Assembly: GCA_020851115.1 (NCBI GenBank)
Contig: JADZDJ010000092.1
Coordinates: 1-64,000 of the forward strand
Direction of reading: 5' to 3'
Source of the DNA: Pirellulales bacterium
Lineage (GTDB): Bacteria; Planctomycetota; Planctomycetia; Pirellulales; JADZDJ01
Length of the DNA stretch: 64,000 bases
Under the pieces are notes generated by a model. The model had not been told where the DNA came from. It searched no databases and saw only the letters and a list, made by a program, of their open reading frames with translations. The position numbers and the translations under genes were made by a program. Shown here one piece after another: positions 6,018 through 11,447 of this stretch (position 1 is the first letter of the stretch; the number at the start of each line of letters is the position of its first letter).

Positions 6018-7046
6018 ATGCTTCCGCCCGGCCAACAACTCGTTGCCTGCGACAAGTGGCCGCTGGTTGGCGAGCGAGCGCCAAACGGCGCGCTCGATCC
6101 GTGGATCATCCACGTTGCCGGGTTGGTTTCCAACCCTCAAATTCTCGCGCTGGGCGGGCTAAGAAAATTCGGCTGGGTCGAGCAAGTCGTCGACATCCAC
6201 TGCGTCACGCGCTGGTCAAAACCCGGCGTTCGATTTGGCGGCGTTACGCTCCAGTCGATTCTCGACCGCGCCTTGCCGCAGCCATCGGCTCGGTATATTT
6301 CGCTGGTCGCACACAGCCATCGGCATCACAGCACATCGCTGCCGCTAGCCGACGCTCTGGAACTGGACACGATGTTGGCGTTGGAAGTCAATGGCGAGCC
6401 GCTGCCGGTTGAACATGGTGGGCCGGTGCGCGTTGTTGTGCCGGGGCGATATTTTTATAAGAGCTTGAAATGGCTAGCGGCGATTGAGCTACTCGCCGAC
6501 GATCGACTTGGCTACTGGGAAAGCGTCGCCGGCTATCACAACCGGGCCGACCCGTGGCGCGAGCAGCGATATGTCGCCACAGGATTGACCAAGCAGCAGG
6601 CCCAAGTCATGCTGGCCGCGCGCGACATCCGCAGCCAAGAACTGCGAAACTTGGCGGCGGCCCAGTTCGACCTATCGGGCCTGACCGCGAGCCGGGCGAT
6701 CTTGCGAAACGCCAATTTTCGCCGCGCGAAGCTGTCCAAGGCAAACTTTGACGGCGCCAACCTCTCGAATGCCCACTTTGAGGACGCCGATTTGTCGTCC
6801 GCCAGCTTTGTCGGCGCCGATGTCGAAGGCGCGGATTTCCGCGGCAGCAATCTGCGCGGAGCCAATTTTTCCGGTGCATCGCTGGTGGGCGTTTCGTTTT
6901 GCGAGCCTTTCGAGAGTACGGCAGGCCATGATGCAATCTTCCAACATGGCGCGAAGCTGGACAGCACGACGCTGTTGCCACTCGGTGCCGCAGAAATGCT
7001 CACGCCCGACCAGTCTACCTATTTGAAACTGGTCCTACGAAATTGA
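6018..7046 (+). CDS. Molybdopterin-oxidoreductase domain fused to pentapeptide repeats
   Basis: A 342-residue two-part protein. Residues 1-180 match the sulfite-oxidase/YedY-type molybdopterin domain: DPWIIHVAGLV near the start, DIHCVTRWS with the cysteine (Cys62) that normally ligates molybdenum, and HGGPVRVVVPGRYFYKSLKW at 133-152. Residues about 210-294 form a pentapeptide-repeat helix (ANFRRAKLSKANFDGANLSNAHFEDADLSS pattern, A(D/N)LxX every five residues). A short tail follows. There is no twin-arginine or other signal peptide, so unlike YedY it should stay in the cytoplasm. The in-frame stop at 5994 leaves the ATG at 6018 as the first start. No partner reductase or cytochrome gene is adjacent. 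Both domains are clear; the reaction and the reason for the fusion are unknown. Confidence 0.85.
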   Translation: MLPPGQQLVACDKWPLVGERAPNGALDPWIIHVAGLVSNPQILALGGLRKFGWVEQVVDIHCVTRWSKPGVRFGGVTLQSILDRALPQPSARYISLVAHSHRHHSTSLPLADALELDTMLALEVNGEPLPVEHGGPVRVVVPGRYFYKSLKWLAAIELLADDRLGYWESVAGYHNRADPWREQRYVATGLTKQQAQVMLAARDIRSQELRNLAAAQFDLSGLTASRAILRNANFRRAKLSKANFDGANLSNAHFEDADLSSASFVGADVEGADFRGSNLRGANFSGASLVGVSFCEPFESTAGHDAIFQHGAKLDSTTLLPLGAAEMLTPDQSTYLKLVLRN

Positions 7047-8275: not shown

Positions 8276-9115
8276 TCAAACCCACAAATGCAGCCGCCCG
8301 CCCAGCATGTCGGGAATTCGTCGCTCGACCAGGTGCCGGATGCGCTTGCCGGTGTACCGCGCGCTGAAATGGGCCGCGATAATCAGTTCGTTCTTGAATC
8401 GTTCGCGGCGTTCCAGCAGGTCGTCCAGATGGATATGGCCAAATTTGTGGATTTTTTCCTTGCGGTGAGAAGGGGCGATGAACGTCAACTCGGTAATCAG
8501 CACGCGGGCCTCGTACATCGCCGGGCAGCGGTCGAGTCCGCCAGGGGCGCTGTCTCCCAAATAGGCCAGCAGCGGCACGCGCACCTCGGCCGTCACTTCG
8601 GTGCCGGCCTGCCTCAGGTCGCGGATTTTGTCTCCCGGCAGGCCATGAAACTCGGGTTTCAGTTTGTGACGACGGTCCCACACGACAAACCCCAGCGACG
8701 GCACTCGATGCTCGGTGGCCGACACCGTGACAACGTGTTCCCGCGACAGGTCGATTTCGTCTCCCGGCTTGGTCGCCACCAGGTTGCAGGGCATCCGACC
8801 GCCGTCCAGTCGCGTGAACAATTTCAAAATCCGCTCGGCTGGCTCGACGGCGTATTCGGGCAGATAGATGGTCGGCGGCGTCATTTTCATCATCCGACGC
8901 CGGGCGACGTACACTGGCAGGGCGGCGATGTGATCGAGATGGCAATGCGACACGAACCACGTTTCGGTTCCCATAAATGCCCACGGCTGCAACCCCAAAT
9001 CGAATCCCAACTTCATTTCGGGCAGCCGCCAATAGGTTTGCACGGCGGCCCGCGAGTAGCCCTCGATCGTGAGGCCCTTGAACTCGAGCGATTTGACGGG
9101 AGCATTATCGATCAT
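8276..9115 (-). CDS. RNase Z-like metallo-beta-lactamase fold hydrolase
   Basis: A 279-residue metallo-beta-lactamase-fold protein closest in pattern to RNase Z/ElaC, the tRNA 3'-end nuclease. The metal motif HxHxDH is present as SHCHLDH (His57, His59, Asp61, His62), and later metal ligands appear in TEHRVPSLGF and GDSAPGGLDR, with a C-terminal HFSARYTGKRIRHLV. It is unusual in having EGYSRAAVQTYWRLPEMKLGFD before the motif, so a related but distinct phosphodiesterase role remains possible. The frame extends upstream to a TTG at 9208, but the ATG at 9115 matches the family N-terminus better. It is followed closely by hemW on the same strand. Confidence 0.8.
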   Translation of the reverse strand: MIDNAPVKSLEFKGLTIEGYSRAAVQTYWRLPEMKLGFDLGLQPWAFMGTETWFVSHCHLDHIAALPVYVARRRMMKMTPPTIYLPEYAVEPAERILKLFTRLDGGRMPCNLVATKPGDEIDLSREHVVTVSATEHRVPSLGFVVWDRRHKLKPEFHGLPGDKIRDLRQAGTEVTAEVRVPLLAYLGDSAPGGLDRCPAMYEARVLITELTFIAPSHRKEKIHKFGHIHLDDLLERRERFKNELIIAAHFSARYTGKRIRHLVERRIPDMLGGRLHLWV

Positions 9116-9419
9116 GCGGACGAGTCGATAAAATGAAGGCAAATGATGGAACGACACTTGTTGGCGAGGGCGATTTGCCGCGTCGCCGCGTCGCCGCCCA
9201 AGATACAATATTGGCGGGAGAAGATTCAGGGCTAAAATTTTAGGTGATGCCCTTCGCCAGCCAAATGGAAATCATGGATCGGAGGCGAATTCCTTCGCCA
9301 CTCGCGCTGATACCACTTCCATTGGCCAATGGGTTTGTTTTACCCACCCCGATTCCAGCGATTCCGTGGGCGAAATCGACATAGGTCGCGGCCTATGCCA
9401 AGACGGATTCGATGACGGC

Positions 9420-9671
9420 ATGGTTCGCTCGATGAAGTTCTTATGGGTCAGCCTCGTGCATGTGCCGGCCTGGCTGGTGATTGCGGCGGTGAAAGTCTAT
9501 CAGTGGACTCTCAGCCCGCTCGTGGGCCGACAGTGCCGATTTTATCCGACCTGCAGCAATTATATGATCGGGGCCGTGAAAAAATACGGCGCCGTTCGCG
9601 GCGTTGGCAAGGGTGTGCTGAGAATCTGCCGATGCCATCCGTGGAATCGCGGCGGGATCGATCCCCCATGA
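9420..9671 (+). CDS. yidD: YidD membrane protein insertion efficiency factor
   Basis: A small protein of about 83 residues with the YidD signature: WLVIAAVKVYQWTLSPLVGRQCRFYPTCSNYMIGAVKKYG and RICRCHPWNRGGIDPP. YidD assists insertion of inner-membrane proteins together with YidC. An amphipathic N-terminal segment associates with the membrane. The three cysteines (CRFYPTCSNY and CRCHPW) are typical. The usual neighbours rpmH, rnpA and yidC are absent, as happens in planctomycetes. Starts at 9366, 9420 or 9432 are all possible; 9420 gives the usual length. It converges on spoVG with almost no gap. Confidence 0.92.
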   Translation: MVRSMKFLWVSLVHVPAWLVIAAVKVYQWTLSPLVGRQCRFYPTCSNYMIGAVKKYGAVRGVGKGVLRICRCHPWNRGGIDPP

Positions 9672-10332: not shown

Positions 10333-10445
10333 AGCCGTTCTCCTTGCGCAATTCACGCTCGCCCAATTTCCCTTGAGCGAGCTTCCCTATAAAAGCTCCG
10401 CTTGAACGACGCTTATTTCGCGTTCGGCAATTCTGCCGACGCCTC

Positions 10446-11447
10446 CTACCGAATAAACGCCTCCATAAAATTGTTCCCCTGCTGCATGGACCGAACCGTC
10501 CAAGTTCGCCCGATTCCTTCATTTCGCAATCGCCGTGCCAATTGTCTTGCATCGCGGCTGTTGCGGGCGATGGCAAAACAACTGCTGCCGCTGCCGCTCA
10601 TGCCAACCAGCGGGCATGCGGTCTCTTTCAATCGATCGAGCACCCTTCCGACGCTTGGCGACAACTCTCGCGCGGAAGTTAACAAGCCGTTGAACGCGAT
10701 GGGCCCAAGCGCCGTCCAGTTTCGACAGGTCAACTCCGCAACGACTCGATTCAACGAGGTAGACGGCTTGCCGGGCTGACAGGCCCGATAAACCGCGGCC
10801 GTCGAAAGCCCTTCCGGCGGCCTGACTACCACAAAATGTAACATTCCCAGTCCGGCAATCGGCTCGACTTTCTCGCCTCGGCCACGGCACGCGGCTGGTC
10901 CGCCAGCAAGAAAAAAAGGCACGTCGCTGCCCAATTGAGCAGCTACTTCGGTCAGTCGATCGAGCGGCCAACTCAAATTCCATACGCAGTTGGCCGCGAC
11001 TAGGGTCGCAGCGGCATCGCTCGACCCTCCTCCCAAGCCGGCCGCCGATGGAATCCGCTTCACCAATCTCACCCTGACGCCGCGACGAATTCCAGCGGCC
11101 CGTGCGAGCAGTCGGGCCGCACGCACGACAATGTTTTCATCTCCTTCGGGCATTGCTGGCAGGTTGTCGGTCGCCAAAGCGCCGCCCACCAAGCCCTGTC
11201 GATGGTTGTTAAGTCCTGTTACCCATGAGGCTTGCAGCGCAATCTCGCCGGTCGGATCGTCCTCGACAACGAGCGTGTCGCAAAGGCTGATGGGAACCAT
11301 GAGGGTTTCGATTTCGTGAAACCCGTCAGCGCGTCGGCCAATGACTTCGAAGAAGAGGTTGATTTTCGCCGGTGCCAATACTTCGACTCGATTGGCCCAT
11401 GGTCCTTCAGACCGAGCGGCCCGATTGGCACGGTGGCGAATTTGCAC
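10446..11447 (-). CDS. ispE: 4-diphosphocytidyl-2-C-methyl-D-erythritol kinase
   Basis: A 333-residue GHMP kinase that phosphorylates CDP-methylerythritol in the MEP isoprenoid pathway. Diagnostic segments are VLAPAKINLFFEVIGRRADGFHEIETLMVPI at the start and the ATP loop PSAAGLGGGSSDAAATLV (133-150), plus the C-terminal GMSGSGSSCFAI near 290. It is a little longer than the E. coli enzyme because of an N-terminal extension of about 20 residues, which may mean the true start is internal. It is the first gene of an apparent ispE-spoVG operon, with 113 bases between them. It has no other MEP genes nearby. Confidence 0.93.
   Translation of the reverse strand: MQIRHRANRAARSEGPWANRVEVLAPAKINLFFEVIGRRADGFHEIETLMVPISLCDTLVVEDDPTGEIALQASWVTGLNNHRQGLVGGALATDNLPAMPEGDENIVVRAARLLARAAGIRRGVRVRLVKRIPSAAGLGGGSSDAAATLVAANCVWNLSWPLDRLTEVAAQLGSDVPFFLAGGPAACRGRGEKVEPIAGLGMLHFVVVRPPEGLSTAAVYRACQPGKPSTSLNRVVAELTCRNWTALGPIAFNGLLTSARELSPSVGRVLDRLKETACPLVGMSGSGSSCFAIARNSRDARQLARRLRNEGIGRTWTVRSMQQGNNFMEAFIR

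Follow-up and report, generated by a model that had tools for sequence, protein, structure and literature searches.

Among the molybdenum enzymes with the sulfite oxidase fold, MsrP (YedY) has a twin-arginine (Tat) signal as its defining feature and, to our knowledge, no domain III, the dimerization domain, of which we take Arg450 of the chicken enzyme to be a part. A further group of unfused, cytosolic 'sulfite oxidase-like' oxidoreductases presumably corresponds to the YuiH type, for which we know of no function. DNA mimicry and scaffolding are known roles of pentapeptide-repeat helices. In chicken sulfite oxidase, His283, Arg288 and Lys301 hold the pterin phosphate and Arg450 hydrogen-bonds both substrate and product, as described in PMC5856855, and Arg374 of the plant enzyme is important for substrate binding according to PMC3365070 and PMC10574614.

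The protein compared here with these systems is encoded on contig JADZDJ010000092.1 of a Pirellulales bacterium (GCA_020851115.1), of which positions 1 to 64,000 of the forward strand were analyzed (the window). It joins the two folds in one chain, and its main features are:

6018..7046, + strand: whole fused protein, 342 aa, without signal peptide (open reading frame and alignments of relatives)
6093..6518, + strand: Oxidored_molyb (PF00174) molybdopterin domain, residues 26-167 (Pfam, 118.8 bits; sulfite oxidase fold, Z 18-23)
6636..6899, + strand: pentapeptide-repeat beta-helix, residues ~207-294, 88 residues (Pfam PF00805; predicted structure)
6951..7043, + strand: C-terminal cap, residues 312-342 (L328 invariant and Q332 in 34/35 rows of alignment A1)

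Domain Architecture and Distribution of the Fused Family

It is near certain that the gene encodes a sulfite-oxidase-type molybdopterin domain followed by a pentapeptide helix. The 342-residue protein scores 118.8 bits against PF00174 (gathering cut-off 24) and its repeat stretch 74.6 bits against PF00805 (cut-off 20.2), which bears out the preliminary description of a molybdopterin domain joined to about 85 residues of pentapeptide repeats, the repeat here measuring about 88. Both models are matched at E<=0.001 by 35/35 aligned orthologues, and no Mo-co dimerization domain was found among these 35 members, which match PF00174 and the repeat models alone. Full-length relatives are 49-59% identical, and the fusion is therefore not due to chance. 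The fused proteins form a real, conserved protein family that is apparently so far without description in the literature; our literature search found no publication combining pentapeptide repeat, molybdopterin and sulfite oxidase or treating this fusion, and none combining YuiH with sulfite oxidase.

A full-length match (E ~1e-98 or better) is present in 22/57 genomes of the order, and E 1e-40 is reached in 8/294 genomes drawn across the phylum, this genome being included in both counts. A genome scan, from which the best 80 of 559 relatives were kept, yielded 36 fused loci (L028-L063) of near-constant length and 44 unfused ones (L064-L107); mixed fused and unfused cases may occur further out, beyond these best 80. 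The fused loci among the best 80 of 559 are mostly from Planctomycetota, and the rest stand under the record titles Nevskia, Acidobacteria, Verrucomicrobia, Zixiibacteriota, Anaerolineales, Acidimicrobiia, Thermoanaerobaculia, Fraserbacteria and Myxococcota, although single titles may reflect misbinning because most records are metagenome bins. In a catalytic-domain tree of 94 rows, built by a quick method with SH-aLRT support only, one branch (support 100) separates 50 fused from 44 unfused rows, so that the fused proteins are one subfamily and not a local accident. The tree and the counts of 50 exclude L009, L013, L014, L023 and L025, which come from genomes represented twice, as well as L057, a locus at a contig edge; L039 and L057 are absent from A1 (35 rows). 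The fusion had been called unusual, which holds for the superfamily, given its absence from the 44 unfused relatives, but not within its own branch, where it is standard (36 of the best 80 loci).

A split-gene (Rosetta stone) reading of loci L073, L076, L079 and L107, whose matches extend beyond residue 190 as if a separate repeat gene adjoined, was rejected, since their open reading frames show no adjoining repeat gene and chance pieces had been joined. This genome also holds a second catalytic-domain relative (L002; contig C31 of G000, 10403-10885, - strand), which lies within an open frame of 548 residues and is 34% identical to the fused protein over residues 5-160.

Cellular Location

An in-frame stop lies 7 codons 5' of the ATG, so that an upstream start cannot add a signal peptide; such a start was accordingly discarded as an explanation, and the reported lack of a twin-arginine signal, of the kind that MsrP carries, stands. 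In the upstream open frames of the fused loci, a Tat-like string occurs in 1/36 (L050, where it is located 5' of the nearest ATG) and a hydrophobic stretch in 1/36 (L030), and among the unfused relatives each occurs in 2/44. Unfused relatives without a convincing signal include those of Paenibacillus, Pseudomonas, Nocardioides and others, and because these too show none, cytosolic placement looks, from sequence, like the rule in this branch for fused and unfused proteins alike. The cytoplasmic location proposed earlier is thus supported, as no signal is possible, but it is not unusual for this branch, since the 44 unfused relatives also lack a convincing signal.

Residues of the Catalytic Domain

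The residues of the catalytic domain with predicted roles are:

6201..6203, + strand: C62, predicted Mo-ligand cysteine, in HCVTRW (in the alignment, opposite the cysteine of HCV/RCV in MsrP)
6414..6470, + strand: H133, R138 and K151, predicted pterin-phosphate binders (phmmer alignment onto chicken His283, Arg288 and Lys301)
6534..6536, + strand: Y173, probably near the place of chicken Tyr322 (invariant in 35/35; one residue off the extended alignment)

The cysteine that the preliminary description had singled out as molybdenum ligand corresponds to C62, which is >97% conserved in the 50 fused and in the 44 unfused rows and does not vary within A1 (35 rows). No recognizable counterpart of the sulfite oxidase substrate arginine Arg190 was found in the fused protein, where spacing would put its place near S67. 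The fused and unfused rows (50 vs 44) have no residue in common at positions 147 (Y vs W), 107 (S vs N) and 104 (H vs Y/F), and G18 of the fused proteins is replaced by H, T or S in almost every one of the 44 unfused rows; T stands at position 107 in 3/7 further planctomycete fused loci. These complete switches indicate that the catalytic domain changed together with the fusion. The molybdopterin synthesis genes for which a check had been suggested earlier are present in this genome, with matches to MoaC, MoaE and MoeA above cut-off, and the cofactor can therefore probably be made.

Predicted Structure and Placement of the Repeat Helix

Structure prediction, likewise proposed beforehand, gave two confident AlphaFold models, one of the fused protein (model 1; pLDDT 93.5, pTM 0.88) and one of the acidobacterial L060 protein, 42% identical to it (model 2; pLDDT 94.2, pTM 0.88), so that a fixed arrangement of the domains is predicted. 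In Foldseek and VIA-align comparisons, sulfite oxidases, SorA, SorT, SoxC and MsrP match the first half and pentapeptide proteins match the second, with a Z of 18.7 for the repeat helix of model 1 against AT2G44920 (3n90). PruR structures match the fold as well (7kos_D, Z 16.4, 125 residues, rmsd 2.0), which would suit a PruR-like protein that binds pterin or acts as a sensor and is not an enzyme; we consider this very improbable, as C62 and the phosphate-binding residues are retained, model 1 aligns over a greater length with full sulfite oxidases (167-180 residues, Z 16-23) and the genome has genes for cofactor synthesis.

The placement of the helix was examined through the end points of alignments to 25 entries that we take to bear domain III (2xts, 2blf, 2c9x, 2ca3, 2ca4, 1ogp, 1sox, 2a99, 2a9a, 2a9b, 2a9c, 2a9d, 3hbg, 3hbp, 3hbq, 3hc2, 3r18, 3r19, 4pw3, 5k3x, 5wa0, 2bih, 2bii, 8s5s and 6y0k). 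With model 1, the last aligned residue is 230, 231, 250 or 251 in 22/25 entries, more often 250/251 than 230/231, and the remaining 3/25 alignments (3hbg, 2bii and 2a9d) stop before the helix; with model 2, whose numbering is shifted by +10, the last residue is 241, 260 or 261 in 16/25, the partners being almost unchanged, 8/25 stop before the helix and 1/25 ends at 303, all of these counts being read with the provisos that the VIA range shows end residues only, that one chicken enzyme accounts for many of the rows and that the two models are homologous. The end partners for model 1 are chicken 450/451 (454 once), plant 375, SorA 356/359, SorT 381/383 and SoxC 407, such that residues 230/231 and 250/251 pair with a residue at or beside the substrate arginine of the chicken (Arg450) and plant (Arg374) enzymes. 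As the alignments end at the place of the substrate arginine, the helix seems to occupy the position of domain III, and the models support the view that it takes the spatial place of this domain, probably closing over the active site.

Conserved Face of the Repeat Helix

Two features of the helix bear on its role:

6705..6707, + strand: R230, outward-facing repeat position, predicted substitute for the sulfite oxidase substrate arginine (conservation and structural end pairs)
6759..6830, + strand: conserved ridge N248, S250, N251, D268, E270 and G271 on one helix face (alignment conservation)

Position 230 is Arg or Lys in 57/57 fused proteins (50/50 and 7/7 further planctomycete loci), and the highest Arg/Lys count among the 17 other i+1 positions of the repeats is 37/50. 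Within A1, K230 is limited to 12 rows (L051-L056 and L058-L063) and all others have R230; since K230 is thus confined to one side of a two-group split, the basic charge has survived about one swap and not many changes. R230 belongs with N248, S250/N251, D268, E270 and G271 to a conserved helix face, on which N248 and G271 are present in 50/50 proteins, D268 in 48/50 and E270 in 48/50 (the other two having D).

That the helix merely stabilizes the catalytic domain, with neither a catalytic nor a binding role, would agree with its rigid docking (pTM 0.88 in both models) and with the existence of unfused relatives that do without it; we regard this as unlikely, because nearly invariant outward residues would be needless in a mere spacer and because complete switches in the catalytic domain accompany the fusion. 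A more probable alternative, though less so than the pocket role proposed below, is that the helix is a docking or oligomerization platform that makes no substrate contact and holds an electron-transfer partner or another subunit on its conserved face. Pentapeptide helices are protein-binding scaffolds, and the ridge of N248, D268 and E270 might just as well form an interface. In SorT, moreover, the domain at this place is named a dimerization domain in PMC4760952. Against such a platform, the ridge maps at the sulfite oxidase substrate arginine in most structural alignments, and no constant partner gene is seen across lineages.

Gene Neighbors and Metabolic Context

In this genome, the fused gene has a GDSL hydrolase on one side and HemW, in convergent orientation, on the other; its neighbors differ between lineages. 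They were called from composition-scored open reading frames, family scans and tblastn with reference neighbors; an all-against-all clustering of neighbors was dropped, as it was swamped by antisense shadow frames. By tblastn with reference neighbors, fae and mtdB lie upstream on the same strand in 10/20 Pirellulales regions examined (G056 not being among the 20), and a Cys/Met PLP enzyme lies downstream in 2/20. Among the 36 fused contig loci, fae and mtdB occur in 6 and a Cys/Met PLP enzyme in 6, 2 of the 6 fae loci belonging to genomes that are also among the 20 regions. The end of mtdB is <=40 bases from the fused gene in L031, L048, L115, L127, L130 and L133, and bshB1 (BshB1 neighbor, 195.2 bits vs cut-off 182.5) follows the fused gene in L028 (same genome as L121), L032 and L133. 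ATGA stop/start overlaps join the fused gene to bshB1 in L028 and to the Cys/Met enzyme in L041. Together, the fae, mtdB, bshB1 and Cys/Met neighbors suggest cytosolic thiol or C1 metabolism but do not point to one substrate.

Across 57 genomes, all 6 without fae also lack the fused gene, and 29 with fae lack it too, counting G005, whose match is partial and lies at the edge of a contig. The one-sided chance of this co-presence is ~0.045 by our own arithmetic and, the genomes being related, is only suggestive.

Several further observations concern these genes and the window. This genome has two Fae homologues (contigs C158 and C185; 238.7 and 199.3 bits) away from the fused gene, and the family relatives G001 and G002 have no Fae homologue. 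The Cys/Met PLP enzymes adjoining the fused gene in L045 (7171-8961) and L041 (6996-8774) have ~595 residues, of which ~135 at the N-terminus are without a Pfam match. In the window, a short open reading frame at 9366-9671 (+ strand) resembles the YidD membrane insertion factor, as recognized by eye, and 8276-9208 (- strand) encodes a metallo-beta-lactamase-like protein that is RNase Z-like but scores 55.7 bits against a cut-off of 292.95.

Proposed Function

Alongside the domains, conservation, single branch, predicted docking and gene neighbors, all of which come from calculation, we propose, at slightly under an even chance, a cytosolic Mo-cofactor oxidoreductase in which the helix replaces the dimerization domain and completes the substrate pocket, acting on an anionic sulfur compound in thiol or C1 metabolism. 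The N-terminal half would bind the cofactor, with C62 on the molybdenum and H133, R138 and K151 on the pterin phosphate, and the C-terminal pentapeptide helix would be fixed where sulfite oxidases carry domain III. The helix face of R230, N248, S250/N251, D268 and E270 would then lie over the active site and complete the substrate pocket, R/K230 acting as the sulfite-binding arginine does in the chicken (Arg450) and plant (Arg374) enzymes, and the enzyme would probably convert this anionic sulfur compound within the thiol and C1 metabolism of the cytosol, the substrate and the direction of the reaction being putative. The narrower statement, that the repeat helix both replaces the dimerization domain and supplies R/K230 as an active-site residue in a cytosolic enzyme for thiol- or formaldehyde-linked sulfur compounds, is put forward more tentatively.

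If true, a pentapeptide helix closing a metal active site would be something new, and it would illustrate how the substrate-binding domain of a molybdenum enzyme can be exchanged. The fused subfamily also gives access to the cytosolic group of sulfite-oxidase-type enzymes, and its neighbors fae, mtdB, bshB1 and the Cys/Met enzyme indicate a field of metabolism that can be tested.

Comparison with Known Systems

The unfused YuiH-type proteins resemble the fused protein in the HCVTRW and YF-KS-KW motifs, in having no convincing signal and in a catalytic domain that is 37-48% identical, but they are mostly 185-225 aa long, have no repeat helix and carry W147, N107 and Y/F104 instead of Y, S and H. 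The 'YedY-type' label given earlier is apt insofar as MsrP/YedY (1xdq) is the nearest solved sequence (E 2.6e-12) and the surroundings of the Mo ligand are MsrP-like (CV--WS), but not as a class assignment, since the protein falls far below the cut-off of the MsrP NCBIfam equivalog model (69.5 vs 207 bits). MsrP also has no repeat helix and is periplasmic, as the title of PMC10653988 states, whereas the fused protein has no signal. The pentapeptide proteins AT2G44920, Rfr23 and HetL share the fold of the repeat helix (Z 15.8-18.7) and, unlike the 342-residue protein, have no molybdenum domain fused to it. The curated models of SoxC (56.4/420 bits), SorA (48.6/600) and SorT (38.3/570) are missed by far. 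With sulfite oxidase, SorA, SorT and SoxC, the protein nonetheless has the catalytic fold in common (Z 16-23), and His283, Arg288 and Lys301 of sulfite oxidase are matched by H133, R138 and K151; the basic residue R/K230 may lie near the place of Arg450. Where these enzymes have a dimerization domain, the fused protein has a pentapeptide helix in its stead.
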